A DNA stretch of 26,556 nucleotides from a virus. How positions within the stretch are numbered: position 1 is the stretch's first letter; each line of letters begins with the position of its first letter. The position numbers and the translations under genes are program-made. This document shows, piece after piece, positions 2,444 through 20,824 of this stretch. The stretch spans positions 1-26,556 of the IMG/VR virus record IMGVR_UViG_3300043446_001712. The stretch is one strand, 5' to 3'. The notes beneath the pieces are model-generated. The model ran no database searches. It had not been told where the DNA came from and saw nothing but the letters and a program-made list of their open reading frames with translations.

Positions 2444-3664
2444 TTATCTGCGAGCACGTGGTGCAGATATTTCACGACTAGCTATTGATTTGACACGAGT
2501 TGGTCGTAATCCAGTAACGCCATGTGTGGTGTCAGCCACAGCAGCCGGATCCTTAACTTTAGATTTTTTTGATTTAGTCATTGGGATGACGCCGGCAGCT
2601 TGTCCTGCTGCTTTAAGAGCACCACCACTAATTGTAACTTTCATGCAATTACTCTGTGTGTCAGTCCAACTTGGAAAACTTACACTGAGTTGATCAGCTA
2701 TTGCAGCCACATCGTCGCCGCTGTTTACATATAAAAATCCAGTGACAGCACTGTCCATAATTATAATGCCATCGAAGTCTTTATCAGCTTTATAAACTTC
2801 AAAACTAGTTTTTAACATTTGTTTTTTTAATTCTGACCCATCTATGGTACCGTTAGGTCCTACAATTTTATTAACCATAGAAGATACATTAACACTAGGA
2901 TAGTGCATTTCTAACATAGCTTTTAATGCGGCTTTGACTTTTTTACTGTCATTTCCAAAAAATGCACTGAATGATGACATATTCAGTTTTGGATTAAATA
3001 TTTCCGATATTTGTGCGTTGTCGGTGGGTATTTCTGCTCCTGGTTCGATTTTTTTGATTACGGGAGCATATTCACGTGCAAATCTTCCCACAATAGCTTG
3101 ACTGCCAGCTGGACCTAATCTTCCATTTTGGCCTGCTTTTAATTCAATTTTAGTTCCATCTATATCCAAGTCCCCGGGGGCGCCGCGACGATTAACCCCA
3201 GGACTAATAATGTCCAGCATGTATTCGCCTTTGCCCACATCTCCTTTTTCGCCAATTTTACCAGATATTTTTTCAAATATATCCACTTTAATAGCATCAA
3301 ATGTTTTTCTAAATTCGCTATCGATAAGTTCAGCATAGCTATGCAATTTACGAGGAGTTAATAATTTCTTTTCATCCAAAATACCATCTGTACTTAATTT
3401 TTTTAGGAATTTTTTAACTTCAGCATCTGTCAAATTGGCATTGGCTAATGCTTCTAAAAATACATTGTTGACTATACCTTTATAGTTTCTTAGTGTAGTA
3501 AATTTTTCTACATCTTTTTTAATGCCATACTTATTAGTAAATTTTAAAATATCTGTTAAATCGCCTTCGTCAGGGATTTTAGATACACGCTTAGTAATTT
3601 CAGAACGTATTTCTTGCGGATCTTCATCCACTATGCTTATAAATTTTCTAATGTCGGTAGTCAT
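2444..3664 (-). CDS. Hypothetical protein with PD-(D/E)XK-like motif (406 aa)
   Basis: I do not recognise a named gene. The N-terminal ~130 residues are Lys-rich and helical. The middle holds GKGEYMLDII (E147), then GDLDIDG-TKIELKAG, with D165/D167 followed by E174-x-K176. This spacing of acidic residues and an E-x-K on adjacent strands is the layout of the PD-(D/E)XK nuclease fold. The same motif family also occurs in inactive structural proteins. The C-terminus is basic and ends APRARR. A late-type promoter (AATAAATA, 3672-3679) sits 7 nt before the ATG and there is no ribosome-binding site, so the message should be almost leaderless and late. A packaged nuclease or a virion protein are the main options. 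Confidence 0.7.
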   Translation of the reverse strand: MTTDIRKFISIVDEDPQEIRSEITKRVSKIPDEGDLTDILKFTNKYGIKKDVEKFTTLRNYKGIVNNVFLEALANANLTDAEVKKFLKKLSTDGILDEKKLLTPRKLHSYAELIDSEFRKTFDAIKVDIFEKISGKIGEKGDVGKGEYMLDIISPGVNRRGAPGDLDIDGTKIELKAGQNGRLGPAGSQAIVGRFAREYAPVIKKIEPGAEIPTDNAQISEIFNPKLNMSSFSAFFGNDSKKVKAALKAMLEMHYPSVNVSSMVNKIVGPNGTIDGSELKKQMLKTSFEVYKADKDFDGIIIMDSAVTGFLYVNSGDDVAAIADQLSVSFPSWTDTQSNCMKVTISGGALKAAGQAAGVIPMTKSKKSKVKDPAAVADTTHGVTGLRPTRVKSIASREISAPRARR

Positions 3665-3920: not shown

Positions 3921-4021
3921 AATTACACAAAAAAATTATTGATTTTTTTATGATGTGGGGCCGCACAATGATCGAAGCTAGGCAAGAACTAGCTAAACGT
4001 AAAATTAGTAGCTACTATTAA
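3917..4021 (+). CDS. Tiny hypothetical protein (34 aa)
   Basis: It is translationally coupled to the preceding gene by an ATGA overlap and reads MKLHKKIIDFFMMWGRTMIE... to KRKISSYY. The first half is a hydrophobic/basic amphipathic helix, perhaps membrane-associated. The second half is basic. The stop codon overlaps the end of the convergent nucleotidyltransferase-cupin gene by 4 nt. No function is known; the call rests on the overlap and the absence of any other use for the segment. Confidence 0.6.
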   Translation: MKLHKKIIDFFMMWGRTMIEARQELAKRKISSYY

Positions 4022-4782
4022 TTTTTTCGTTCAATATCTTCTTCAATACAATTTTCACCGTATTGAATCTCAATAAGCTTTAGTGGCTGATCAGTTTCAT
4101 TGCACAACATGTGCCATTCATTGACATCTATAAATGTGCTTTGTTGAGCCATTAAGCTACACTTTAGATCATGATCTGTGCTAGAGTCTAATGTGTATAC
4201 CGCTGCTTGCCCTTGTGCTACAAACCAAAATTCTGCTCTTTTTTCATGCCGTTGCATACTCAGGCAAGTCTTAGGAGCTACAGTAAGTTCTTTAAGTTTA
4301 ACGCCCGGGCCGCAAGTGTGCAAAATTCTATAATAGCCCCATGCTCTTGAAGTTTTAGGCGCTTTCCATTCTTCTAATATCCAACTAGATGAATTACGTT
4401 TGTCTTGGCCACCGACACCAAACACAAATTCCAAATTGCTGTCCATGAATGCCATTTCAGGGATATTGTCTTTGGTTCTATCGCCGCCATTTGCAAAAAT
4501 GATTTTTGCATCGGGGTAAGCATCCCTGACCCGTTTAATTGCATCTATGCTAGAGCCATCATTGTCGTAAAATTCGTAGACAAAGTCTACCATTTTAAGA
4601 TTGTCGATTATCGAAGCACGTTCGTGCCATGGCATAAATGCTCTGCCTTTTTTACGTTCTAACCATGCATCGCTGTTGACGCCTACAATTAGCATGTCGC
4701 CTAATTGTTTAGCTGCTTCGAAATAGGCAATGTGCCCAGAATGTATAGGATCAAATCCGCCGGTTACTAGTACAATATTCAT
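4018..4782 (-). CDS. Nucleotidyltransferase-cupin fusion (254 aa)
   Basis: Residues 1-140 form a cytidylyltransferase-type nucleotidyltransferase: the motif TGGFDPIHSGH (7-17) is the (H/T)xGH signature and RNSSSWI (129-135) sits where the family's second conserved S/T motif is expected. Members join a nucleotide to a phosphorylated sugar or glycerol. Residues ~150-245 are a cupin barrel of the mannose-6-phosphate isomerase type (PGVKLKELTVAP, then QRHEKRAEFWFVAQG at 177-191, with H179 and E184 as likely metal ligands). The pairing suggests activation of a sugar derivative for a surface or nucleotide-modification pathway; substrate unknown. It is the last gene of the gp32-UvsX-UvsY operon, 8 nt after uvsY, and ends against the convergent tiny gene. 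Confidence 0.85.
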   Translation of the reverse strand: MNIVLVTGGFDPIHSGHIAYFEAAKQLGDMLIVGVNSDAWLERKKGRAFMPWHERASIIDNLKMVDFVYEFYDNDGSSIDAIKRVRDAYPDAKIIFANGGDRTKDNIPEMAFMDSNLEFVFGVGGQDKRNSSSWILEEWKAPKTSRAWGYYRILHTCGPGVKLKELTVAPKTCLSMQRHEKRAEFWFVAQGQAAVYTLDSSTDHDLKCSLMAQQSTFIDVNEWHMLCNETDQPLKLIEIQYGENCIEEDIERKN

Positions 4783-7339: not shown

Positions 7340-8497
7340 TTATGCTGATTGTGGTTCTTCATTGTTTATAACATTGTATAAATCTTTAAAAATTCTTTTG
7401 CTGTCTAATCCTCTACGTTGATCCAGTACTGACAATTTATCAATCGACAGTCTGGTATTTTTCTCGTAGGGAGTATTAATGTAGTGTAGCATATTTCGAT
7501 AACCATCTTCAAGAAGATAACCGGGTTTTTGATTGATTCTGTTTTGTAAACTACTCTTTAATGAGTTTAACACATTTTCCGGCAAGTGTCTAATATTTAG
7601 GTATTCAGGAAACAATAATGCCCCAATTACAAAACTATTGTTATGGAACCCCATGCTCTTCAAGAAATCCACACAATCAAATATAGAATTATAGTTTAAT
7701 AAAAAGTGTAACATATTAAACGATATCTTGTGATTTAGATTTTTAATTGTGATTAGATTATCCAAAAAATCCTGCCATGACCCACCGTATCTAATGTATT
7801 CAAATTCTTGCTCGATGGTTTCTACACTCACTATCCAATGCACATTGGGAAACTTACAAACAGCATCGAACACTCTGGTATCCACTTTACTCAAATTAGT
7901 GTTTATTCTAATGTTAGTATTGGGATTCAATTTTTCCAACAACACTAAATTTTCTTTCATTAACAGTGGTTCACCTCCGGCCAAATATACATGTTTAAGT
8001 TGTCCAGCGTGGTCGTAAATGTAGTTTTTAAAATCTGTTACTTGTTGATCGGTTGGTGTCTGATGACTGATTTTTAGTTCGTCACTCCATTTACTACTAA
8101 ACTCTGGACCACAATATACACAAGCAAAATTGCATAGATTTGTCCAACGTACATCTACTGTATTCAAATTAAAATTACCAGGCTGGTATGTACTAGTTGG
8201 TATGTCTTTTAATTCACGTATGTAAAATACACGGTCACTGATGTGATCAAATCCTCGTTTACCACGTTCCAGGTCGTAACAGGTATGACAAGTAGACACT
8301 GGTTGTTGATTAATAATTTGTTGTTGCCGCGGCAGATTGTTATCGACTAATATGGATTCGATTGATTGATCTTTTATATTACCAAGAGGCCCGGCACTAC
8401 GAATACAATTTTTTACTTTACCATCGAAGTTGTACATCATGCCAGTCCAAGGCATAGGACAAAATGTAGGGTTGGTCAGCATGTCTTTGGGTGTCAT
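7340..8497 (-). CDS. Radical SAM protein with N-terminal SPASM/twitch-like cysteines (385 aa)
   Basis: The radical SAM [4Fe-4S] motif is C122-NFA-C126-VY-C129, followed by AGGEPL (173-178), which contacts SAM methionine, and NTNLSK further on. The N-terminus carries a separate cysteine set (CPMPW C13, C31, and CHTC C70/C73) with the 'GxxxxC..GxLGNIKDQSIESI' spacing of twitch/SPASM auxiliary-cluster domains, here placed before rather than after the barrel. Family members modify peptides, proteins or small molecules by radical chemistry; the substrate is unknown. It is the last of five tightly overlapping enzyme genes, its start overlapping the dehydrogenase stop by 4 nt. Confidence 0.88.
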   Translation of the reverse strand: MTPKDMLTNPTFCPMPWTGMMYNFDGKVKNCIRSAGPLGNIKDQSIESILVDNNLPRQQQIINQQPVSTCHTCYDLERGKRGFDHISDRVFYIRELKDIPTSTYQPGNFNLNTVDVRWTNLCNFACVYCGPEFSSKWSDELKISHQTPTDQQVTDFKNYIYDHAGQLKHVYLAGGEPLLMKENLVLLEKLNPNTNIRINTNLSKVDTRVFDAVCKFPNVHWIVSVETIEQEFEYIRYGGSWQDFLDNLITIKNLNHKISFNMLHFLLNYNSIFDCVDFLKSMGFHNNSFVIGALLFPEYLNIRHLPENVLNSLKSSLQNRINQKPGYLLEDGYRNMLHYINTPYEKNTRLSIDKLSVLDQRRGLDSKRIFKDLYNVINNEEPQSA

Positions 8498-9039
8498 TTG
8501 TATATCGGCCCTAGAGAGATATCTGGTATAACTAAATTATTTGCTTGTGCCATGTTTAAAGTATATACCAATACTTTGGCCCAATTATCGACATCAGCTG
8601 CCGGAGGCACTGTTTTATCTTCACTGGTAGCAATGTTTCCCGGACGAACTATAGTAAAATTAACTTTAATTCTTTGATATCTTAATTGTTTTACAGCTTC
8701 TTCCAACGACATTTTTTGTAAACGATACGCGGTCATCTCGATTCCAGGTAGCACGCTCACAGGATCCTGTGTCATTATAGTACTGATAACCATAATATGC
8801 TTACCGGTGCCTTCCCAACGTCGTGCTATTTCAAACAACAATTCAGTCTGAGCATAGCCTGCTTGTGCGTTGTTTATAAACATGTCACAGGTTTCTATTA
8901 GATCTGCTATCTTTGGTATTGCTCGTATATTATGACCAGTGCGTCTGCTTAACCTTAGTACTTCATGACCAAGTGCTTCATACTCATTGCCTAGTGCTTG
9001 TCCTATTCCGGCCGTTCCTCCGGTAATTGCAATTTTCAT
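8494..9039 (-). CDS. Short-chain dehydrogenase/reductase (181 aa)
   Basis: The protein has the classical SDR elements in order: TGGTAGIG (6-13) for the NAD(P) Rossmann fold, FINNAQ (55-59, in place of NNAG), a serine at 86 (VISTIM), and Y105-xxx-K109 (AYRLQK). It ends at 181 aa, shorter than typical ~250-aa SDRs, lacking most of the substrate-binding tail. SRR at 31-33 after the second strand suggests NADP preference. It would oxidise or reduce a hydroxyl/carbonyl group in the same pathway as the flanking radical SAM and oxygenase genes. Both ends overlap their neighbours by 4 nt. Confidence 0.88.
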   Translation of the reverse strand: MKIAITGGTAGIGQALGNEYEALGHEVLRLSRRTGHNIRAIPKIADLIETCDMFINNAQAGYAQTELLFEIARRWEGTGKHIMVISTIMTQDPVSVLPGIEMTAYRLQKMSLEEAVKQLRYQRIKVNFTIVRPGNIATSEDKTVPPAADVDNWAKVLVYTLNMAQANNLVIPDISLGPIYK

Positions 9040-9647
9040 AATAAGTGTATGGGTTCTTTAAAAAACATACCTTGTAAACCTATTCTAGGAAATACAGGAT
9101 TTTCATAAAAGCCAACATCATGTGCAACTTGTCCATTCATAATAATTGGTTCATTTTTTGCAAAATCATGTCTTTCGACTTCATAAAAGTCTTTGTAATC
9201 AAATTGGTAATTGTCATTATCTTTACTGTCAGGATCTCCTGACCGTCTAACCAATGTATTAATATCAATCTGTGGATTTTTTTGAAGATAAAATCTCACA
9301 GATGTTCTTTCCATATTCAGTATGGGCCAGTTTAATTTCCAAACCACTGGAGGCTTGTCTATGTGTATCGGGCAACTAGTTTCCGAAGACACTGGAGAGG
9401 TAGTGGTCCAAGCCAACGTAAAATACATATCCTTAAGAGTTATATTCATGGAAGTAAACCAAGCAACTAATTTAGGATTAGATTTAACAAAATGCGTGAT
9501 GTCTTGATTAAATTTGTCAAGAAAATTGCAGTATTGATAGTTATCGCTTTTAGTAATAAGAGTGGTATACTTATGAACATAATCTATTAGATCATGATTT
9601 ATTTCTTGATAATTTGGACAGTTTAATATTCGATAATATTGACTCAT
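9036..9647 (-). CDS. Fe(II)/2OG-type oxygenase-like protein (203 aa)
   Basis: The likely iron ligands are H95-I-D97 (CPIHIDKPP) and H176 (GQVAHDVGF), with R188 (FPRIGLQGMFF) as the cosubstrate arginine. The same HxD...H...R arrangement occurs in the other oxygenase at 5477-6052, but the sequences differ clearly. No signal peptide. It overlaps the upstream radical SAM gene and the downstream dehydrogenase gene by 4 nt each, so all three are translationally coupled and likely serve one pathway. The catalytic assignment is from motifs only; a cupin-like non-enzymatic fold is less likely. Confidence 0.7.
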   Translation of the reverse strand: MSQYYRILNCPNYQEINHDLIDYVHKYTTLITKSDNYQYCNFLDKFNQDITHFVKSNPKLVAWFTSMNITLKDMYFTLAWTTTSPVSSETSCPIHIDKPPVVWKLNWPILNMERTSVRFYLQKNPQIDINTLVRRSGDPDSKDNDNYQFDYKDFYEVERHDFAKNEPIIMNGQVAHDVGFYENPVFPRIGLQGMFFKEPIHLL

Positions 9648-10585
9648 ACTATTCCCCTTAACGCATTTTGATTTTTCAGAAAGGTATCTAACTCAGTCTG
9701 ATTATTCCTGCCCACTGCTACTTGTCCAGGAATAATATCAAAATATGGTTCTGTCATTGAGTTTACATATTTGACATTTATCGGATCAGGATTTTGTAAT
9801 AAAGCCCAACTGTGTAACAGTTTATGTGTGGCAACAAACTCTTTAATATTTAAAAAATTGCCTATGTTTAAAGCACTGACTGTTGTCCAGGTATTTAGTT
9901 CATATAAATTCATTGACTGATACGCCATTAAATTTGCATAAAATCGATTCCACTTAATAGGCCATCGCACCTTATCGTGTACTTCTTCGATTCCATCCAG
10001 ACTTACAGTTACCGTTACTTTTACACCACGTGCAATCAATGGTTCTAATTCTGTTAACACTGTTGAACAATTTGTATTAATCCTGATACTAGTAATATTA
10101 GATGGCAGATTGGCAAGTATAAATTTATAGTTCTTGCTGGCACTGGGCTCGCCTCCATTGATATCTAAATGAACTACACGGGCTAGGGGCAATCTCCAAA
10201 ATGTATTACTATTATCAATGATAGGATAATCTTTGCTTTTTAAACTTCCAATTTTTGTACTTAGTTGTTCATTGCATGACAGACAAGCACTATTACACAC
10301 ATTGTCCAATACCCCGCCAACAATCAAATAATCTGATTTAGTTTGTTGTTGATCAAAAGAAATCGCATTCAGTCTTATACTGGTTTCATTAACCGCTTCT
10401 GTCTGCTGACACCGCAAACATTCTTTGGGCCAAGTGTCATGTTTAGTTTTGATGTCAGTTAACCAATCACTGGCATCCATTTGTTCTAGCGTAGTAAATC
10501 TGGGAGGATTAACCATATGACCACAACGACTTACTGTCCCGTCGGGATTAAATCTTACAAAATGGTCAAGTCTTGGGCAGTACAT
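9644..10585 (-). CDS. Radical SAM protein, second of the cassette (313 aa)
   Basis: The radical SAM motif is C97-NSA-C101-LS-C104, followed by DINGGEPSAS (141-150), which fits the GGEP motif, and RINTNCS. An N-terminal cysteine set (C3, C21 and CLRC C56/C59) resembles a twitch/SPASM-type auxiliary cluster domain placed in front, the same architecture as the 385-aa enzyme. It is shorter at the C-terminus. The start overlaps the sulfotransferase-like gene by 20 nt and the end overlaps the oxygenase gene by 4 nt. A peptide- or carbohydrate-modifying enzyme is plausible; the substrate is unknown. Confidence 0.87.
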   Translation of the reverse strand: MYCPRLDHFVRFNPDGTVSRCGHMVNPPRFTTLEQMDASDWLTDIKTKHDTWPKECLRCQQTEAVNETSIRLNAISFDQQQTKSDYLIVGGVLDNVCNSACLSCNEQLSTKIGSLKSKDYPIIDNSNTFWRLPLARVVHLDINGGEPSASKNYKFILANLPSNITSIRINTNCSTVLTELEPLIARGVKVTVTVSLDGIEEVHDKVRWPIKWNRFYANLMAYQSMNLYELNTWTTVSALNIGNFLNIKEFVATHKLLHSWALLQNPDPINVKYVNSMTEPYFDIIPGQVAVGRNNQTELDTFLKNQNALRGIV

Positions 10586-12347: not shown

Positions 12348-13811
12348 TTATTTGGTAATACCCGCCAAAAGTTTCAGCAATCCGGGTTTTAATTCTTCCA
12401 TTACACCATTACTGTAACTGCCAATTTCTCTATCAGCAGTTGTGCTTCCGTAAGCACCGTACCCATAATCGTAAACCCCCATACGAGGGAATTCAAAATT
12501 TGGATTCCATGCTGCTATAATATCTTTGGCTCGTTCTATTTCTTCTTGACTTTCGAAATAGTAAACTCCGTCGCTGAATCGAAATTCAAATCCGTGTTCT
12601 TGAAAAAGCTGAACTAATCGATCATCTTCCGCATCACCGTCGATTACATTACCATCCGAATCGGCAGTGGTTAAACTATTTGCAAATGGACTAGCAGTGT
12701 TGCTATCGTCTTCTGCATCTTCTTCCATATCTAATTTTAAACTGGCATGCTTTTTATTTTGAATATCTATATTGTTGCCGATATTTTCAATAACACCATT
12801 TGCCCATGATTCAAATTCTTCGCCTACATGATTTTTATATTTGTTGTACGCTTTAAAAACAACAGGCAGAGCATCCATTAATCTGTCGTCAAAAATCTTC
12901 CTGGTAAAACGTTCGCGCAATGAATTTAAATCAACATCAGATTCGTCTATCAATTCTGGTTGCCATAGATCTTTATACTGTTCATACCCACGCTGACTAC
13001 GTATAGTAAAAAGATCTCTGTGCAGTTTACCGTAATGGTCTATTGCACTTTTTACCATTTGGCCAGTTTCCATATCTTCAAATGTTCTGCCGCGCATATT
13101 GCGAGTAAAAGTTTTTAATACATTCATCTCATTAATGACGCTAGTAATATGTTTACCAAAGTCATCATGTAATGCTCCGCCATTTTTGATATGTCTGGCA
13201 TATGCCCTTGCCCCATTTATTGTAGTGCCTTCTGGGCAACGATAACGTTCCCCTAAGGAATTCTCGATGTAGAACGATTCGATATTACGACTTCTTGCAC
13301 CGGGCTTTGTTTCGTCTACTATAGGCTTACTATGTCTTACAATGATTTTTACATTTTCAAATTTTTGATAACTGCTTCTACTGGTACCGTATAACTTACT
13401 TTCAGTAACTGTGATATCATCTTTGTTTAAAATTTCTGCATTTTTATTTGCATGTTTTAAATCTCTAAGATTAAGACCGCTTTTAGCAATGTCCCTAACG
13501 TCAAAACTTAACATGTTTCGTTTGGCAAACAGTCGCATTGATTTCAAAAAATTATACCAAACTATTTTTTCTTCAGTAGACATTTCATTGTCAATGTCTT
13601 TGTCGAAAAATATTTTTAAATTATTACTGTCTACTAGACTAATTGTAATATTGCCTAAGTTATTGTCGTTAACGACATAATCAAAATTAAAGAATCTTGC
13701 TTCTGTGGGGTCTAGTGTAGCTTTAGCATTTTCATCCCCAATATTAACCGAGTCGAATCGGCTACGGATTTTATCAAATAAATTTTCAGCTACTTTTTCA
13801 ATTTCAATCAT
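12348..13811 (-). CDS. Conserved hypothetical protein of T4-like phages (487 aa)
   Basis: I recognise the pattern but not a function. A central segment (ESFYIENSLGERYRCPEGT, then NGARAYARHIKNGG and DDFGKHITS) resembles a protein recurring in cyanophage-type T4-like genomes. The N-terminal half is mixed alpha/beta. Residues around 370-400 are acidic (MEEDAEDD, DGDAEDD). The C-terminal ~80 residues have FEFRFSDGVYYFESQEEIERAKDII. There are no nuclease or ATPase motifs. A CATAAATA late promoter 7 nt before the ATG and no ribosome site suggest a leaderless late message. It lies between gp17 and gp32 and may be a virion or DNA-associated protein. Confidence 0.75.
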   Translation of the reverse strand: MIEIEKVAENLFDKIRSRFDSVNIGDENAKATLDPTEARFFNFDYVVNDNNLGNITISLVDSNNLKIFFDKDIDNEMSTEEKIVWYNFLKSMRLFAKRNMLSFDVRDIAKSGLNLRDLKHANKNAEILNKDDITVTESKLYGTSRSSYQKFENVKIIVRHSKPIVDETKPGARSRNIESFYIENSLGERYRCPEGTTINGARAYARHIKNGGALHDDFGKHITSVINEMNVLKTFTRNMRGRTFEDMETGQMVKSAIDHYGKLHRDLFTIRSQRGYEQYKDLWQPELIDESDVDLNSLRERFTRKIFDDRLMDALPVVFKAYNKYKNHVGEEFESWANGVIENIGNNIDIQNKKHASLKLDMEEDAEDDSNTASPFANSLTTADSDGNVIDGDAEDDRLVQLFQEHGFEFRFSDGVYYFESQEEIERAKDIIAAWNPNFEFPRMGVYDYGYGAYGSTTADREIGSYSNGVMEELKPGLLKLLAGITK

Positions 13812-13837: not shown

Positions 13838-15403
13838 TCAAATCATGATGAAGGGCATGGGCATTAATACATCTTCGCTTTCATCTTTGAGTTTTTCATC
13901 TAAGTTGGGATCAAATTCTCTAAGAAATACTGCCATTCGCACAGCTAGTAGCATAGACATAACTAAATCATCAGTTTCCCCAATCTTAGCTGCATATCCA
14001 CTGCCCGATGCTACAAAAGTTTTTAACTCACTGACTAAAGCTTTGCTGGCAATATGTAGTTTATTAGTTTCTATTAGGTTTTTAAATTTAGAGCAAGCAG
14101 CTAGTTTAGTTTTATTTGTGGTAGTAAAGCCTTTTCGATAAGCTTTAACAGCTCCAGCACGTTTAGGTTCACTTAGGAAAATACCTTTAATATTTTCTTC
14201 TCCAAATTCGCTTATAGCCACTAAAGCCGCTTCTCCCAGTGTGTTATTTTCTACACTATAATAAACATCATTATTAGATTTTGTAGTTTCTACCAAAGTC
14301 TTAGTGATTTCAGACATTATCTTTACCTGCTGCTGTACCGACGTTTTGTTGTGTTGCCACTCAGCTATCTGTTTCATGCTAGGTAATTCTAAGACTTGTA
14401 TTGCCGCTGGATCACCGCCAGTACCTAAACTAGGATCTAATGCCACTACATAAACACTACCCGACTCAGGTTTTTTATACCACCTTACTTGTCCCTGTTT
14501 AATTAAAGGATCTATTCCCGACATTTCTGTTAGGAAAATAGGATTAATCAGAGTTTCGTCGTATATAATGAATTCACATTCCATTTCTCGGCGGAAACGT
14601 TCTTCGCCTAGCTGTGATTTCATTTCTGCGGCCCATTTATCATCCCTGTCGGGATGTTCTTGCCATTTACTACGATAAGCCCGGAATCCATTGACTCCCA
14701 ACTCGGTTTCATTGCCGTATTCATCTACACGTTTGTTTGCTTGTCTCCATATCTGTGCAAACTGATCTTCATCGCTGTTAGGAGTACTTGTAATAATACA
14801 CTTACCGCCTGTTGCCAATGTAGGGCTAATAGAAGTCCAAAACTCTGATGCAATACTGGGTCTTACGAATGCAAACTCATCGCAGTATAATAATGATATA
14901 GACATACCACGACCAGTATTTTCTGTGGTTGTTGCACTTATTATACGCGAACCATTGTCAAAATCTATGCTGCCTTTATTATAACTAGTAACACCTGCAC
15001 GAATATAATCAGGTACGCTTTCATATGCATATCTGATACGTTGCATGATCTCCTGTGATCCAGTATATTTGTGTGCGGCTACAAGCACAGTGCTGTCGGG
15101 AACGAACATCGCATACCATAAAAGATATCCAGCTGCGGTAGTAGATTTTCCAGTTTGACGGGGCATCAAACTTATGCTGAATCTATAATTATGGTACGTT
15201 TCAACCAGCCTTGTTTGATAATCAAAAGGTCGATACCGCATTCTACCTTTGGTTGGGTGCTGTATATAAAAATAATTTTCTAAAAAATACTGCGGGCCTG
15301 TATCGGGGTTGGCACATGCAATAACTTCCCGAATCTGTTCTTCTGTAAACGATTGTTTTACATTTGGTTTCTTAATAAGAACAGATTCTAATGGCTTAGA
15401 CAT
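13838..15403 (-). CDS. 17: Terminase large subunit gp17 (521 aa)
   Basis: gp17 is the DNA-packaging motor ATPase and the nuclease that cuts the concatemer. The ATPase domain shows Walker A MPRQTGKST (80-88), Walker B LLYCDEF (171-177) and the coupling motif TSTPNS (205-210). The C-terminal RNase H-like nuclease has the acidic triad D323 (VVALDPSLG), E385 (YYSVENN) and D479 (GETDDLVMS). Its length is near T4 gp17 (610 aa) but it lacks about 90 N-terminal residues. The late promoter TATAAATA (15443-15450) lies about 40 nt upstream. The small terminase candidate is about 5.5 kb away rather than adjacent, unlike T4. Confidence 0.97.
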   Translation of the reverse strand: MSKPLESVLIKKPNVKQSFTEEQIREVIACANPDTGPQYFLENYFYIQHPTKGRMRYRPFDYQTRLVETYHNYRFSISLMPRQTGKSTTAAGYLLWYAMFVPDSTVLVAAHKYTGSQEIMQRIRYAYESVPDYIRAGVTSYNKGSIDFDNGSRIISATTTENTGRGMSISLLYCDEFAFVRPSIASEFWTSISPTLATGGKCIITSTPNSDEDQFAQIWRQANKRVDEYGNETELGVNGFRAYRSKWQEHPDRDDKWAAEMKSQLGEERFRREMECEFIIYDETLINPIFLTEMSGIDPLIKQGQVRWYKKPESGSVYVVALDPSLGTGGDPAAIQVLELPSMKQIAEWQHNKTSVQQQVKIMSEITKTLVETTKSNNDVYYSVENNTLGEAALVAISEFGEENIKGIFLSEPKRAGAVKAYRKGFTTTNKTKLAACSKFKNLIETNKLHIASKALVSELKTFVASGSGYAAKIGETDDLVMSMLLAVRMAVFLREFDPNLDEKLKDESEDVLMPMPFIMI

Positions 15404-15473: not shown

Positions 15474-15998
15474 ATGTCAGATGTACTGCTGTTGAACAGC
15501 GATTATAATCCAATTAGCATTTTGCCGCTAAGTGTTATCGGTTGGCAACATGCTGTCAAACTATATTTCTTGGATCGTATCACTGTGGTTGAAGAATACG
15601 AAGACTGGGTGATTCGCAGTGAAAATTTCAGTATGAATGTGCCCTGCGTCGCGGTTACCAAAGAATACTTCCACTTTAAAAAGTCGGCAAAATTTTCCCG
15701 CAGTAATATGTTTTTACGCGACATGTACCAATGCCAATATTGCGGTGAAGTATTCGATCACAAAGAATTAACGTTGGATCATGTTATTCCAAGAGCCCAG
15801 GGCGGAAAAACCACTTGGGAAAACAGTGTCACGGCCTGCAAAAATTGTAACCATAAAAAAGGTCACAAACTAATTAAGCCGTTACGAGCTCCGTACAAAC
15901 CAGATCATTTTCAACTTATTAAAAAGTGGAAAGAGCGGAATGTACAAGTCCGACACAAAAGTTGGTATCAATATTTGGGACTTGAACCGAAAAGTTAA
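15474..15998 (+). CDS. HNH endonuclease (174 aa)
   Basis: The C-terminal half is a canonical HNH/McrA-type nuclease: zinc cysteines C87/C90 (CQYC) and C122/C125 (CKNC), the catalytic LDHVIPR (D102, H103), WENSV (N117) and final N/H residues (CNHKKG). The N-terminal ~70 residues (LLNSDYNPISILPLS, then W-QHAVKLYFLDR) form the usual companion domain of phage and bacterial HNH proteins. Such genes often sit beside terminases and assist packaging or act as free-standing homing enzymes. It is the only sizeable plus-strand gene, inserted among virion genes, with its own sigma70 promoter and a GAGAG ribosome site. Confidence 0.93.
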   Translation: MSDVLLLNSDYNPISILPLSVIGWQHAVKLYFLDRITVVEEYEDWVIRSENFSMNVPCVAVTKEYFHFKKSAKFSRSNMFLRDMYQCQYCGEVFDHKELTLDHVIPRAQGGKTTWENSVTACKNCNHKKGHKLIKPLRAPYKPDHFQLIKKWKERNVQVRHKSWYQYLGLEPKS

Positions 15999-16204
15999 AT
16001 TGGCTTTTCGCCAGTGAGATAAGGTTTACTAAACCAAAGTTTGAACCAAGCATCGGTGCCCGGTTTGATGTCGTTTTTACGCATCAGCTGGGCTTTTTCA
16101 TTTCCAGTGACACTAATATTACTGCCAGGGTAACCTTCATAGGCAGTCCATTTGGGGCGATTGCCAATGCCGGCCAGCATTTTAAGTTCTTGAAGTTCGT
16201 CCAT
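15995..16204 (-). CDS. Small hypothetical protein (69 aa)
   Basis: The protein begins MDELQELKMLAGIGNRPKW and continues TAYEGYPGSNISVTG...DAWFKLWFSKPYLTG. The short 'ELKMLAGI' helix followed by a Trp/Tyr/Gly-rich segment resembles tails of phage head-associated proteins, but I cannot assign a family. Its start overlaps the stop of the 127-aa gene by one base, so it is the last member of the head-protein operon. The end overlaps the convergent HNH gene by 4 nt. Confidence 0.7.
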   Translation of the reverse strand: MDELQELKMLAGIGNRPKWTAYEGYPGSNISVTGNEKAQLMRKNDIKPGTDAWFKLWFSKPYLTGEKPI

Positions 16205-16587
16205 TATACACCAAATTTATTTTTCTTTGGTTTTGCGATTGGACTATCAATATTTACGTCGAGTGCTTCTTCACTTTTATCCGTAGACAATTGTTTTATA
16301 TCACCTGTATACTCTTTTCCTAAAATTTTCATAGCCAATTTTATAATTTCCATGTCAGCATCGGTATACCCAATAAGAGTCATATCTTCACCGAATGCAC
16401 TTTCGATGTCCATTGGGTTTGGACTCAATGCACTGGCTAATGCCATTCCCATTCTTAGTTGTTTGTAAGGATCTTGACTTTTTAACTTCGGAAACTCAAC
16501 CGCATTAGGCATAGCCCTTTTAACTCCAGGGATAAGACTACCAATACCGCCATGCTGTTGTTCGGTTAGAATTTCGTTGATTTTCAT
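16204..16587 (-). CDS. Putative capsid-targeted protein A (127 aa)
   Basis: The N-terminus MKINEILTE followed by Q resembles T4 capsid-targeting sequences (MKTYQEFIAE...), which direct internal head proteins into the prohead and are removed by the gp21 protease after (L/I)xE; here LTE ends at residue 9. The C-terminus SPIAKPKKNKFGV is shared with the upstream gene product. The middle (RMGMALASALSPNPMDIES, DADMEIIKLAMKILGKEY) aligns in pattern with the same neighbour, so the two are paralogs. The mature function is unknown. The start overlaps the neighbour's stop by 4 nt. Confidence 0.75.
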   Translation of the reverse strand: MKINEILTEQQHGGIGSLIPGVKRAMPNAVEFPKLKSQDPYKQLRMGMALASALSPNPMDIESAFGEDMTLIGYTDADMEIIKLAMKILGKEYTGDIKQLSTDKSEEALDVNIDSPIAKPKKNKFGV

Positions 16588-16967
16588 ACACCGAATTTAT
16601 TTTTTTTAGGTTTAGATACAGGGCTTACTTTGTTAGTGCCTTTTAATTCCTGACTTTCTAAATCACCATGATTTAAATCTTCATAATGACTACCTATCGC
16701 TTTAAAAGCTTGTTTTAACATTGCTTGCTCTTGATGAGTATAAGGAAAAGCCAAATTATTTCTGCCTGCCCAAGATTCGGAATCAATATCAATTTGTAAA
16801 GGATTAACGCCGTCTGCGGCAGCCACTGCCATCATAACTCGATTTAACTCATAAACTCGATCGGCGAATTGCTGATCACGAAATTTTGTTAATCCGACTG
16901 TAGACTGTTGAAGACGCGGGGGTATTTTACCCACTGCATCTTCTAATATAACTTCGTTAATTTTCAT
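16584..16967 (-). CDS. Putative capsid-targeted protein B, paralog of A (127 aa)
   Basis: I place the start at 16967 (MKINEVILED) rather than at the in-frame ATG at 17024, because the longer version would overlap the end of the preceding gene and lose the leader-like N-terminus. TAA of the preceding gene and this ATG are separated by one base. MKINEVILE has ILE as a candidate prohead-protease site. The body contains a helix VMMAVAAADGVNPLQIDIDSE and HQEQAMLKQAFKAIGSHYEDL, and the end SPVSKPKKNKFGV matches paralog A; both proteins are 127 aa. Confidence 0.75.
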   Translation of the reverse strand: MKINEVILEDAVGKIPPRLQQSTVGLTKFRDQQFADRVYELNRVMMAVAAADGVNPLQIDIDSESWAGRNNLAFPYTHQEQAMLKQAFKAIGSHYEDLNHGDLESQELKGTNKVSPVSKPKKNKFGV

Positions 16968-16968
16968 A

Positions 16969-17652
16969 TTACCAGGCCCTGCATGACCAATAACGTGCTT
17001 TCCAACGTGGGCCAGGATTTTCACAGTGGTGTCTTGCCCTAAAACTTTTTCGACGTTTAGGATTAGATTTTTTAATTTTCATTTTTTTGTCGCCAAAGTT
17101 CACTTTAACAACATTACCTTTTGGACCACGAACATAAACTTTAGATTTTTTAACATCACCTTGCATGGGTTTGCCTAATGCAACTTCACGACCTTGATAT
17201 TTGGCTTCTTGCATTTCATCGGTACCATAATCATCAGCTAGTTGTTCTGCCATGATATCGATAATTTGTTCAAAATCATCATCTGGGTGTAATCTATAAT
17301 CTATAGAAACATTGTCATACATATCTTGTAATTTTTCAGCTACGTAAGCTTCCTCTGCACCTTGAGGATTATTCATAACTGTGTAAATGTCTAGGTCTCC
17401 GCTAGCTAATTTTTGAAAAATTTCATCTACTTCGGCTATTCGACTTTCTTTTACATTATAATTATCCACTGATTCAAAAATTGCACCGCCCAGGCCCAAC
17501 AAAGCCATAGTCTTGTTATCGGCTTCTACGATGACGCCATCTGGCATGAATCCAACAACACCAGTTTCGATTATTAAATTGCCTAATTCAATGCCGAAAC
17601 TGTCTCCGAGTTTAATGTCATCTTGTTCAATTATAACGTCACGTATTTTCAT
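16969..17652 (-). CDS. Putative capsid-targeted protein with conserved basic C-terminus (227 aa)
   Basis: The N-terminus MKIRDVIIEQDD fits a capsid-targeting leader, and the first 60 residues hold several (I/L)xE sites (ends at E9, E29, E43, E60) that the prohead protease could use. The middle is strongly acidic (YRLHPDDDFEQIIDIM). The last ~80 residues are basic (VYVRGPKGNVVKVNFGDKK, SNPKRRKSFRARHHC) and end in PGPRWKARYWSCRAW; this tail, with C210/H208/H209 and C224, recurs in marine T4-like phage proteins as I recall. Acidic centre plus basic tail suggests a DNA-contacting head protein. The start overlaps the 846-aa gene by 4 nt. Confidence 0.78.
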   Translation of the reverse strand: MKIRDVIIEQDDIKLGDSFGIELGNLIIETGVVGFMPDGVIVEADNKTMALLGLGGAIFESVDNYNVKESRIAEVDEIFQKLASGDLDIYTVMNNPQGAEEAYVAEKLQDMYDNVSIDYRLHPDDDFEQIIDIMAEQLADDYGTDEMQEAKYQGREVALGKPMQGDVKKSKVYVRGPKGNVVKVNFGDKKMKIKKSNPKRRKSFRARHHCENPGPRWKARYWSCRAW

Positions 17653-20189
17653 TTTTTTACCTTAATGTCTTCATATTCTTTAATCAGTTTTAAACTCATG
17701 CTTTCTTTCATAGCTTGAGGGTTATCACCAAATTGATAACCATGAGGAGTCATTTTCTTTTCTTTGCCAGCTACGTCGCCGTCACCGCCTTTTGTCTGTG
17801 CTTGTACAGGCATTACATGCTCTTCTGGAGTAGTGTTTGCATGATAGCGCTCGTCTTTGGCTTCATCCACTTCTTGTTCTTCTGGAATGTCAGCTGACTT
17901 CTGCTGAATCCCCGAAGTCGGAACTTCCGATGGGGTTGGAGTTGTTGAGTTCGAAGGCTCTGGTTTAGCGGAATTCCCTGCACTTTGCTTCGACAACTCT
18001 TGACTCATTTTTTCCTTGCTGGCTATTGCTTGCTGTAATTTTTGCATATCGGCTGGATCTGGTTGACCGTCAGCTCCTATTTTAGGCAAAGGCATTCTTT
18101 CATTTAATTCTTCATCATCGTCTGTACTAACAACCATAACACCCTCTGGCTGTTCTTGCGACATTTCACCGCCGCCCATGCCTGCTAATTTTAACATTTG
18201 CATTAGTTCTAATGCAGAGTCACCGTCAGCAGTGATAGTTACACTTTTGTTACCGTCAGTGCTCATGTTAGTGCTGATATTCATTTTACCTTGACTATCT
18301 TGCATTTCTTGTGCATAGCCGCCAATTGGGCTCATACCACATTCTTGCAATCCTGCTAGTCTACGGAATAAGTTTAAAGATTCAGATACTTTATCATCGC
18401 ACTTGCACTTGCTTTCCCACATGCCACATTCGTTACACTTTTGTTCACCTTCGCGTACAGTTTCCATATCTCCATCACCGTCTAAGTCAGCTTTCTTCAA
18501 ACCTTTTTCTTTAGCAAGTCTGACTTGATTGCCAAAATAATTACCTTCTTCCATGTCAGCTTCGTCTACTGGCACTGGAACAGGTACGCCCTTTTCTCCA
18601 GCTTTTGGGGGATCACTGGTCCATACTCCGCCTTTGATAGTTCCCATTGCAGGTTCAGAAGCTTTTGGCATCGGTGTTTGCGGTGCCTTGGATGCTTTAG
18701 AAGCAGGGGACACACTTCCACCATCGATATTTTGTGGAACTGGTACATTAGGCTGACCTTTTTTTGGAGGATCACTGGTCCATACTCCTCCCTGTATACT
18801 TCCCTCAAATAAGTCAGCAAAGGTATCACTTATCAATCGTCGAGCAGCCGACGAACTTTCAAATGCATGTTTACGTGGTCTGCCGCGGCCGCGTTTAACG
18901 GGCTCACTTGTCCCATCACCTGTTTCGCCAGTTTTTGGATCATATCTTCTAGTATGTCTAATTCCTGTAGCAGTTTTTTCTATTTCGCCTTTTGCACCAC
19001 TACGTTTTTCTCCAGTTTTCATTCCATGGGCACGATCTTTAACTGCTTTAAGCATATCGTCCCATCCTTCAATGATTTGCTCTTTTGTATATCCTGCTTC
19101 CATCATCGAACGAATTGTTTCTTCTAACTTACCTTTGTTATGTGCTTTCCAAGCAGCGCCGTATGCTTTACGTTTTTCTACATCAGTTAACTTACCGTCC
19201 TTAGCATATCCTTTTTTAATATGCTTTACCATACGCTCTGCTTTAGCTCCTGGTGGTGCTACTTCTGCTGTAGCTGTACGTTTAGCATCTACTCTTTTAC
19301 TAATAGCAGCTTGCCTTGGTTTGTTTGGATCATTGGTCCATCTTTTTCCTAATTTATAATCGGCTATTTCAACACCTGCTTCGCGTTTTTTTGCAAGAGC
19401 TGTTGCTTGCGCTGGATTATCATAAACTTCTTCGCCTCTCTGTGCATCTTGATACTGCGACACCGAAGTACCTTTTGCTAGCTCACGTGCATGCCTAGAT
19501 TGATCTGTTGCTTTTTGTTTATATCTAGTTAATAGTTCTGGCGAAAGTTCATTTAAATTCTTTTTTCTTAATTTTTTGTCTTTAGCAGCTTTTTTCATTG
19601 GCTCAGTTTTGTTGCCGTCTTTGTCTAAATCGATGTAGTCTGGTTTTGAAGCTTCGCTTACCTTCTTTCCAGCTTTTTTCATTTCTGCGTCGTATGCTTG
19701 TTTAGTAACTTTTTTGCCATTAATGGTATATGTCTCTTTGGCTTCTGACATATCTTGTTCTTTTTTCTTTTCTTCTGAATCGCTGTCTGCTTTTAGTTTT
19801 ACATCCGAAGGAGTTAACTTTTTACCTGGTTCCAATGTAACAGATAATTTTTTTCCTTTTGGCGCAGTGGCGCTAAATCCAGTAGAAGTCGATTGTACAT
19901 AATCAGTTTGTTCACCTAATTTTTTACCGGCAGCAGCAGCTTTTTGAAATTTTTCTTTACCGTACTTTTTACGACCGATACTGGCAGCAACTGCTTCTGG
20001 ATTGTCTGCTCCGCCTTTTTTAACAGCAGCCACAGTCTTTTTAAATCCCATATACTTTTCCGACAGCACTTGATCCATGCTTTCTTGCAATTGTGTCTTG
20101 GCCTTAGACTGTGTTTGTGTAGCAGGCGTTACGGGCTCTTGAGCCACTTTGTTAAAATTGTTTAGAATGTTATAAATGTTATTGCTCAT
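17649..20189 (-). CDS. Large basic modular head/DNA-associated protein (846 aa)
   Basis: I cannot name it. Visible modules in order: LQESMDQVLSEKYMGFKKT (34-52) with (L/V)xE cut-like sites; Lys/Ala-rich basic repeats (57-95); an EF-hand-like loop DLDKDGNKTE (187-196); a long basic region; an AT-hook KRGRGRPRK (432-440); two copies of GGVWTSDPPK (467-476, 520-529), each followed by a VPVP stretch; a second EF-hand-like loop DLDGDGDMETVRE (568-580); a cysteine cluster CNEC...CKC (585-597); and a low-complexity Gln/Ser/Pro tail. This suits a DNA-binding scaffold or internal head protein, not an enzyme. It sits between the 210-aa and 227-aa head-type genes. Confidence 0.7.
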   Translation of the reverse strand: MSNNIYNILNNFNKVAQEPVTPATQTQSKAKTQLQESMDQVLSEKYMGFKKTVAAVKKGGADNPEAVAASIGRKKYGKEKFQKAAAAGKKLGEQTDYVQSTSTGFSATAPKGKKLSVTLEPGKKLTPSDVKLKADSDSEEKKKEQDMSEAKETYTINGKKVTKQAYDAEMKKAGKKVSEASKPDYIDLDKDGNKTEPMKKAAKDKKLRKKNLNELSPELLTRYKQKATDQSRHARELAKGTSVSQYQDAQRGEEVYDNPAQATALAKKREAGVEIADYKLGKRWTNDPNKPRQAAISKRVDAKRTATAEVAPPGAKAERMVKHIKKGYAKDGKLTDVEKRKAYGAAWKAHNKGKLEETIRSMMEAGYTKEQIIEGWDDMLKAVKDRAHGMKTGEKRSGAKGEIEKTATGIRHTRRYDPKTGETGDGTSEPVKRGRGRPRKHAFESSSAARRLISDTFADLFEGSIQGGVWTSDPPKKGQPNVPVPQNIDGGSVSPASKASKAPQTPMPKASEPAMGTIKGGVWTSDPPKAGEKGVPVPVPVDEADMEEGNYFGNQVRLAKEKGLKKADLDGDGDMETVREGEQKCNECGMWESKCKCDDKVSESLNLFRRLAGLQECGMSPIGGYAQEMQDSQGKMNISTNMSTDGNKSVTITADGDSALELMQMLKLAGMGGGEMSQEQPEGVMVVSTDDDEELNERMPLPKIGADGQPDPADMQKLQQAIASKEKMSQELSKQSAGNSAKPEPSNSTTPTPSEVPTSGIQQKSADIPEEQEVDEAKDERYHANTTPEEHVMPVQAQTKGGDGDVAGKEKKMTPHGYQFGDNPQAMKESMSLKLIKEYEDIKVKK

Positions 20190-20191
20190 GA

Positions 20192-20824
20192 TTATCTTCC
20201 GTTTCCTGCTTTCATACCACGTGGGTTGATTACTTTATTTTTATGAGTTCCGATTGGGCTTGCACTGCCTTGTGGCAATTCGTTTGTTGTTTTTGCTACA
20301 GGTGTTTTGCCTCCAGCAACTTCAGGATACTCGTATTTGCGAGTTTCCTCTAATTCTTTAATTAAATTAGGAATCCTGGCATCACCCACCAGAGCTTCTC
20401 CGTCTTTGCCAGGACGCTCTCGTTCCATATTGTCTTGCAATAACACGGATTCTCCAGGTTTGCCTCCTAGATTGCTGACTTCTGTGCCATCTAAAATTGC
20501 TTCATACGGGCTGTTCTTAGGATTAACTTTAATGCAAGCTAAATTTATGCCTGCACGTTCGGCCACTAATACTCGAATCTGCTCATCATTACATGGGTAA
20601 TTTAAACTAACATCAAAAATGTTAATTTCCACTGGTCCCATGTTAGGAAACTCTGGAGTCTCTTGTATGGGTAAGCGTTTTGGTTTAGTGACAGAATCTA
20701 GCTTATAAGCTTCTAGCACAGTTTTGATTTTAGATAGCAGATCATCTGGCAATTCGCAGGCTAATCTAATTCTAAAATCATATGTTTTATGACTTTCTGT
20801 TAGATAGGCTTTAAATGGTTTCAT
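20192..20824 (-). CDS. Conserved head-associated protein of T4-like phages (210 aa)
   Basis: The N-terminus MKPFKAYLTES resembles a capsid-targeting leader with LTE as the protease site. The rest (KTYDFRIRLACELPDDLLSKI, KPKRLPIQETPEFPNMGPVEI, NIFDVSLNYPC) follows a protein that I recall as widespread in cyanophage-type T4-like genomes, without known function. The C-terminal third is Gly/Pro/Lys-rich and probably disordered. AATAAATA (20844-20851) lies upstream and AGGA provides the ribosome site. It opens the transcription unit of head-type genes downstream of gp16. Confidence 0.78.
   Translation of the reverse strand: MKPFKAYLTESHKTYDFRIRLACELPDDLLSKIKTVLEAYKLDSVTKPKRLPIQETPEFPNMGPVEINIFDVSLNYPCNDEQIRVLVAERAGINLACIKVNPKNSPYEAILDGTEVSNLGGKPGESVLLQDNMERERPGKDGEALVGDARIPNLIKELEETRKYEYPEVAGGKTPVAKTTNELPQGSASPIGTHKNKVINPRGMKAGNGR

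Follow-up and report, generated by a model that had tools for sequence, protein, structure and literature searches.

Four neighbouring minus-strand genes of a viral DNA begin with short leaders that resemble N-termini cut away in the T4 head. Do these leaders direct their proteins into the head of the phage, and are they removed there? An earlier note on this DNA had reported the leaders at 16204-20824 (MKPFKAYLTE, MKIRDVIIE, MKINEVILE and MKINEILTE), likened them to the capsid-targeting sequence of T4 and taken the cluster for injected proteins or scaffold parts. We analysed the whole stretch of 26,556 bases, which is the entire virus record and is called the window here, together with related phage genomes. 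All four leaders were found. Comparison of the sequences indicates that the locus quite probably encodes precursors of prohead-core cargo, which would be docked by their leaders and cut by a gp21-type protease in a T4-like jumbo phage. Among the papers searched, none described leaders of this kind for the phage group.

The locus and its relatives

A structural block of the T4 kind (tail sheath, tail tube, another tube-like protein, a head-closure protein like gp4 and the large terminase) lies in the window, which also encodes a single-strand binding protein and a UvsX-like recombinase. The large terminase has its nearest matches, at 56% identity, in the PA5oct group of Pseudomonas jumbo phages, followed by those in Sinorhizobium phage Phosso and Agrobacterium phage Atu_ph07. 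The protease, portal and capsid genes lie off the window contig, and relatives were therefore used instead. A scan with g5 gave 38 loci and a second scan with the g5 family gave 53. G007, a 354,959-base record carrying a remote g5, was reached by scanning with the scaffold gene; G001 is the 338,510-base record of locus L014.

The genes of the locus are listed in Table 1. The order g6 - g5 - g4 - g3 - g2 - g0 - large terminase is common among the relatives, with losses, fusions and insertions. The paralogues g1 and g2 are 33-36% identical, and the gH gene comes after the large terminase gene. An opposite-strand HNH endonuclease gene (window positions 15474-15998) lies between g0 and the large terminase, and GIY-YIG- or HNH-like insertions occur at this gap in other loci too.

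Table 1. Features of the locus in the window, and the small gene behind the portal in related loci
Feature	Position	Strand	Remarks
g6, 163 aa	20864..21355	-	upstream edge of locus; small-terminase-like by position only
g5, 210 aa	20192..20824	-	leader, then ferredoxin-like domain (residues 15-102), disordered tail
g5 leader MKPFKAYLTE	20795..20824	-	T4 IP type: F4, Y7 targeting positions; L8, E10 processing positions
g4, 846 aa, low-complexity modular protein	17649..20189	-	11 [LI]xE sites, two LAG motifs
g4 LQE, residues 34-36	20082..20090	-	LxE kept here in homologues despite variable surroundings
g4 first LAG motif LNLFRRLAGL, then QE	18348..18377	-	
g4 second LAG motif LMQMLKLAGM	18177..18206	-	
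g3, 227 aa	16969..17652	-	leader, N-terminal body, C-terminal basic module
g3 leader MKIRDVIIE	17626..17652	-	MKSLKEYIAE (T4 IP type) in its place in relative G007
g3 MQE, residues 147-149	17206..17214	-	presumed cut site ahead of module; E149 invariant
g3 C-terminal module AKYQG...RRKSFRARH...	16972..17205	-	free-standing protein in small phages without T4-type protease
g2, 127 aa	16584..16967	-	leader MKINEVILE at 16941-16967
g1, 127 aa, g2 paralogue	16204..16587	-	leader MKINEILTE at 16561-16587
g0, 69 aa	15995..16204	-	LAG motif LQELKMLAGI at 16166-16195
Large terminase	13838..15403	-	downstream edge of locus
gH, 487 aa	12348..13811	-	C-terminal tail LLKLLAGITK at 12351-12380, resembles scaffold tail
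Small gene behind the portal	L071:702-932, L072:578-808, L073:527-760, L074:604-831, L042-region PA5oct 82921-83142		

Four leaders in the window

All four leaders end in (L/I)xE. The g5 leader resembles the T4 capsid-targeting propeptide MKTYQEFIAE, which was confirmed as the IPII leader in a T4 record, and those of g1-g3 resemble the N-terminus of T4 gp24, which begins MAKINELLRE and is annotated as cut by gp21. The start of g2 was corrected. Its longest ORF begins with GTG at 17024, while the leader requires ATG at 16967, and g2 homologues have the same leader at their own ATG, in agreement with a start at 16967.

Leaders were counted with the pattern ^MK.{4,6}[LIV].E, which matched 4 of the 27 genes of the window. 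The expected mean was 0.074 when residues 2-60 were shuffled (Poisson P about 1e-6); when the real second residue was retained, the shuffles gave a mean of 0.28 leader genes, and at least four were reached in none of 20,000. As the pattern was derived from the observation, tests outside the window weigh more. It matched 5 of 451 genes in G001 and 7 of 430 in G007, three in each lying in or beside this locus, and in these two genomes Glu at residue 9 after M[KR] was seen 10 times against 1.8 expected from other offsets. A chance origin of the leaders was ruled out by the shuffles together with the conservation described below.

Two more gene groups of G001, at 66433-71736 and 303267-311236 (loci L055 and L067), have leader-like N-termini ending in hydrophobic-x-E (MRASDFILE, MKINEVITE, MTNMRKLLE, MSDIRRLLE and MKSLDFLNE) and are possibly more head cargo. 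The small gene directly after the portal has a short leader ending in IFE or ITE (MLFKDIFE, MLDEIFE, MLKDIFE and MKINDIITE) and likely encodes a gp67-region core protein.

Protease, capsid cut site and virion proteins of relatives

G001 encodes a Peptidase S77 prohead protease (PF03420, E=4e-27) in a block with the portal, gp67-like, scaffold and capsid genes. Proteases of the gp21 type were found in G001, PA5oct, Atu_ph07, Phosso and other carriers. In 53/53 relatives LxE stands directly ahead of the presumed mature N-terminus of the capsid protein, and the site is also present in RaK2, GAP32, BF, 121Q, SCTP-2, Phosso and Atu_ph07. The counterpart stretch of the T4 capsid protein reads FLTE at the cut, followed by AEIGG.

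The PA5oct record marks 93 proteins as detected by ESI-MS/MS, a set that probably includes passengers. According to this annotation, gp282, the g5 homologue, and gp278, the gH homologue (E=1e-32), occur in virions. Three marked proteins encoded elsewhere in PA5oct carry leaders, namely gp333 (MKINDIITE), gp246 (MKIKDILVE) and gp104 (MKILEFNLTE). The strict leader was modestly enriched among the virion proteins of this phage (P=0.03); the loose N-terminal (L/I)xE pattern was not (P=0.2), and neither pattern serves here as main evidence. The marked protein gp281 has a g4-like position and the LAG motif but does not align with g4, and homology between the two was rejected for want of anything beyond these features. 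In RaK2, some virion proteins were without sign of cutting by gel size (PMC3622015), a measure by which the loss of 10 residues is hard to see.

A motif shared with the scaffold

The C-terminus of the scaffold in this phage group is EIKRLAGLK, or nearly so, in 78/78 relatives. Two copies of this pattern lie in g4 and one in g0, and a similar LAG tail ends gH. In G007 the strict motif was present in four of 430 genes, which are the scaffold, g4, g0 and gH, and in G001 it was present only in g4 (twice) and the scaffold. In PA5oct it lies twice in gp281, and also in the scaffold and in two more proteins detected in virions; one of these two is an ATPase, probably a chance match. The scaffold tail carries LAG in PA5oct, Phosso and Atu_ph07, LSG in RaK2-like phages and NAG in SCTP-2. 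We infer from this distribution that LAG may serve these proteins, like the scaffold, for docking. As a general T4 feature the LAG tail was rejected, since it is absent from the scaffolds of T4, S-SSM7 and phiM7. In Phosso (L069:2501-3913) and Atu_ph07 (L070:2501-3745), the annotation calls the scaffold gene a DNA double-strand break repair Rad50 ATPase; its position and sequence show that it encodes the gp22-like scaffold.

The LQE at residues 34-36 and the LSE at residues 42-44 that had been reported for g4 are both present. In total, g4 has 11 [LI]xE sites, where shuffled sequences would have 5.6 (P=0.018). Sites at about twice the expected number, together with the LAG motif of the scaffold tail, would suit scaffold or core components that, like T4 gp22, gp67 and gp68, are broken down and lost from the head instead of remaining there as cargo. 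We consider this explanation of the locus rather unlikely, because the g5 and gH homologues persist in PA5oct virions, where the scaffold of PA5oct itself was not detected, and because the conserved folded or module regions of g5 and g3 are without LxE sites that would destroy them. Scaffold parts, as the earlier note had proposed, are plausible for g4 only and not for the other proteins of the locus.

Conservation and exchange of leaders

F4, Y7, L8 and E10, among other positions, are invariant in the g5 family. Among g5 relatives selected via a body peptide, 29/29 keep F4, Y7, L8, T9 and E10, and positions 3, 5 and 6 are variable; only this set is readable as a rate, as some other loci had been found via leader peptides. 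Conservation in homologues, which the earlier note had named as one of the points on which its idea could fail, was thus found. The hydrophobic or aromatic residues 4 and 7 are F4 and Y7 in the g5 family and correspond to I3 and I/V6 in the 9-residue leaders of g1-g3. The annotated start of the g5 homologue of Atu_ph07, FDI40_gp113, is 29 codons too late (upstream stretch L041:10568-10654). With an in-frame ATG further upstream the protein gains MKTLQDYLTESKKCYTYHVKFLQEIDEEI, a stretch that aligns with the g5 family, and its leader then reads MKTLQDYLTE.

In T4 IPIII, targeting depends on residues 4 and 7 and processing on residues 8 and 10; with Asp at position 10 the protein is still targeted but no longer cut (PMC9026906). 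The remote g5 homologues of PA5oct (gp282, hhalign E=6e-12) and Phosso keep F4 and Y7, and E10 is absent. Targeting residues thus outlast processing residues in remote homologues, matching the prediction from T4 genetics.

The missing E10 weighs against cutting as a general step. The leaders could be docking helices that are never cut and keep their Glu for docking, not for a protease; gp282 is found in virions with only the targeting residues kept, and the Asp10 protein of T4 is still targeted. That the leaders target without being cut is nevertheless quite unlikely in our view. The Glu is invariant in the 29/29 closer relatives, in g3 leaders it shifts by one position together with the hydrophobic P3, and hydrophobic-x-E also stands at internal module borders (see below), where N-terminal docking is impossible.

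The leaders were also found on different bodies. The g3 orthologue of G007 has switched leader type (Table 1), and the g3 slot of L014 is occupied by a 461-aa protein with other modules and the leader MKVNDVITE. Proteins with the g3-type module in other contigs carry MKTLRDYITE, MKSFRDYLAE, MKTFQDYLIE, MKSFREYISE and others; a leader was present in 21/69 closed contexts, and 13 of these are of the IP type. Leaders are exchanged between unlike bodies, so that a constant leader stands on variable bodies as in T4. By these comparisons the leaders appear to behave like functional modules. A g2 homologue of G007 with the leader MKIREIITE lies upstream of the tail sheath (265198-265593, L171) rather than beside the large terminase, indicating that the leader-bearing gene moved as a unit.

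Presumed cut sites at module borders

The C-terminal 78 residues of g3 make up a basic module with a wide distribution. The search query for this module began at A150 and excluded the junction, so it could not select for the preceding residues. The residue before the module was Glu in 55/55 distinct upstream contexts (79 loci). P3 was L, V, M or I in 48/55 and P2 was free; Val, which lies outside the T4 motif L/I-x-E, was P3 in 17/55. The junction is absent in six small Pelagibacter or Roseobacter phages (HTVC111P, HTVC202P, Aegir, CRP-902, CRP-3 and CRP-6). In four of these the free-standing module starts at the same Ala (HTVC111P MAKYKG, HTVC202P MAKYKG, Aegir MAKYQG and CRP-902 MATYKG), and the starts in CRP-3 and CRP-6 are more divergent. 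Peptidase S77 was found in 4/4 complete phages with the junction (C48C1, HTVC008M, Melnitz-2 and immuto) against 0/6 without it (Fisher P=0.005, a value made optimistic by shared ancestry within each phage group). C48C1 has leader and module in one protein, which reads MKKFKQYIDE, then GCCEACKSLDEELELTE, then AEYQG.

A second, unrelated module (SLGDYRKKA) followed [LIVM]xE in 11/11 contexts with a readable start; it stands twice directly behind a leader and once inside a g3 relative. A third module (EFGAYYYEQ) was not counted, as it was found in 5 loci only, with VAEG or VVEGK ahead and the Glu not directly at the border. The junction Glu is present in phages with the protease and absent in small phages without it, indicating that the presumed cut sites mark module borders. 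The idea of the earlier note was right in kind and understated in extent. The note had missed both the presumed internal cut site at the module border and the LAG motif.

Roseobacter phage CRP-6 gp55 (L351:1001-1690) has a g3-type module ahead of a fused Peptidase_S78_2 (XkdF-like phage protease) domain, a fusion that connects the module, in an unrelated phage, to capsid maturation.

Leaders and junctions might instead be inherited with conserved domains, with neither targeting nor cutting, and the proteins could act in the neck, in the tail or in assembly: their genes stand between those for terminase and tail, N-termini of the MK-I kind are frequent where a genome is AT-rich, and the homologues in virions may sit anywhere in the particle. 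This is very unlikely, given that leaders pass between unrelated bodies, that free-standing g3 modules begin after the junction Glu, which is therefore not part of the domain, that P2 varies freely and P1 and P3 do not, that LAG ties g4, g0 and gH to the scaffold, and that the CRP-6 module is fused to a phage protease domain.

Structure and function searches

In the AlphaFold model of g5, residues 4-9 form a separate helix of low confidence, residues 15-102 are confidently modelled as a ferredoxin-like domain, and the tail is mostly disordered. The leader is predicted by this model to lie outside the folded body, as expected of a removable propeptide. PDB matches to the model were generic ferredoxin-like folds (ribosomal S6, HPPK) that gave no function, and a search of g5 against solved structures gave no sequence match. 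The structure model of g3 was too weak for use (mean pLDDT 55). The locus proteins had no match in Pfam and only weak matches in PHROG, to unrelated or unnamed families, and defence-system models gave nothing convincing. No sequence or fold similarity was found between the bodies and T4 IPI, IPII, IPIII or Alt (Pfam, PHROG and the g5 model). The internal proteins of T4 are unlike one another too, so body similarity is not a defining feature in T4.

Comparison with known systems

The system is best filed as a variant of the T4 scheme of capsid targeting and prohead cleavage. Like T4 IPI, IPII, IPIII and Alt (CTS), the proteins have an N-terminal leader of about 10 residues with aromatic or hydrophobic residues at 4 and 7, a hydrophobic residue at 8 and E10, and, as for the T4 internal head proteins, the leader is constant on variable bodies and a T4-type protease occurs in the same phages (relatives). 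The bodies at this locus, however, are unrelated to those of the T4 IPs, the genes lie between the terminase genes, and some carriers have extra presumed cut sites at module borders. The g1, g2 and g3 leaders match the gp24 propeptide of T4 almost letter for letter, but these proteins lack the capsid fold of gp24 and by sequence are not shell proteins. With its many LxE sites, g4 is like the T4 core proteins gp22, gp67 and gp68, which are prohead proteins cut at several sites; it shares LAG with the jumbo-phage scaffold but has no similarity to these three.

In the large phages phiKZ, 201phi2-1 and SPN3US, too, a prohead protease cuts many of the head proteins after x-E (PMC9026906, PMC7411985). 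The cut motif of the phiKZ-like phages is S/A-x-E, whereas here L, V, M or I stands at P3 of the leaders, of the capsid site and of the module borders. No homology to the processed head or ejection proteins of phiKZ-like phages was found, and the short CTS-like leader differs from them.

A proposed scheme for loading the head

The interpretation of the earlier note holds in part. Its core, cleavable leaders of the T4 capsid-targeting kind, is well supported at the level of sequence by the conserved T4 positions, leader exchange, the capsid LxE, the protease of relatives and the virion mass spectrometry of PA5oct. In such a scheme, the N-terminal helix of 9-10 residues would dock the precursor on the scaffold core, by analogy with T4. 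A gp21-type prohead protease would cut after [L/I/V/M]-x-E and remove the leader, and in g3 and its kin it would also split the chain at the module border. The mature bodies would remain in the head with the DNA, which would be the place in the particle of the g5 and gH homologues detected in PA5oct virions. The LAG motif of g4, g0 and gH would probably serve as a second means of binding the prohead interior. The candidate cargo may also be injected into the host.

By the same comparisons, widespread giant T4-like phages probably load modular cargo by a T4-like system of tagging and cutting. We propose more tentatively that T4-like environmental and jumbo phages load modular cargo polyproteins, made of an exchangeable leader and modules that would be cut at hydrophobic-x-E after packaging; one docking would then deliver several free proteins, and a subset would dock via a copy of the LAG tail. 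Many virion proteins of giant T4-like phages have unassigned roles, and such an address-and-cut code could place many of them inside the head from sequence alone. It would also predict mature N-termini and make cargo entering with the DNA directly testable. The code would also offer natural leaders and cut sites for loading chosen proteins into phage heads. The position of the presumed cut sites further suggests that the head protease may shape where phage protein modules recombine.

Other genes of the window

The window encodes a 406-aa protein (2444-3664) without any family match. Its N-terminus, MTTDIRKFISIVDE, resembles the N-termini of some module carriers elsewhere (MTDIKNYISAIDG in L294). 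A cluster at 7340-10585 looks like a small modification pathway: it encodes two radical SAM proteins, of which one has a SPASM domain, and beside them a protein resembling short-chain dehydrogenases and one without family match. The gene at 4018-4782 encodes a single phage protein in which a cytidylyltransferase-like domain is fused to a cupin of the mannose-6-phosphate-isomerase type.
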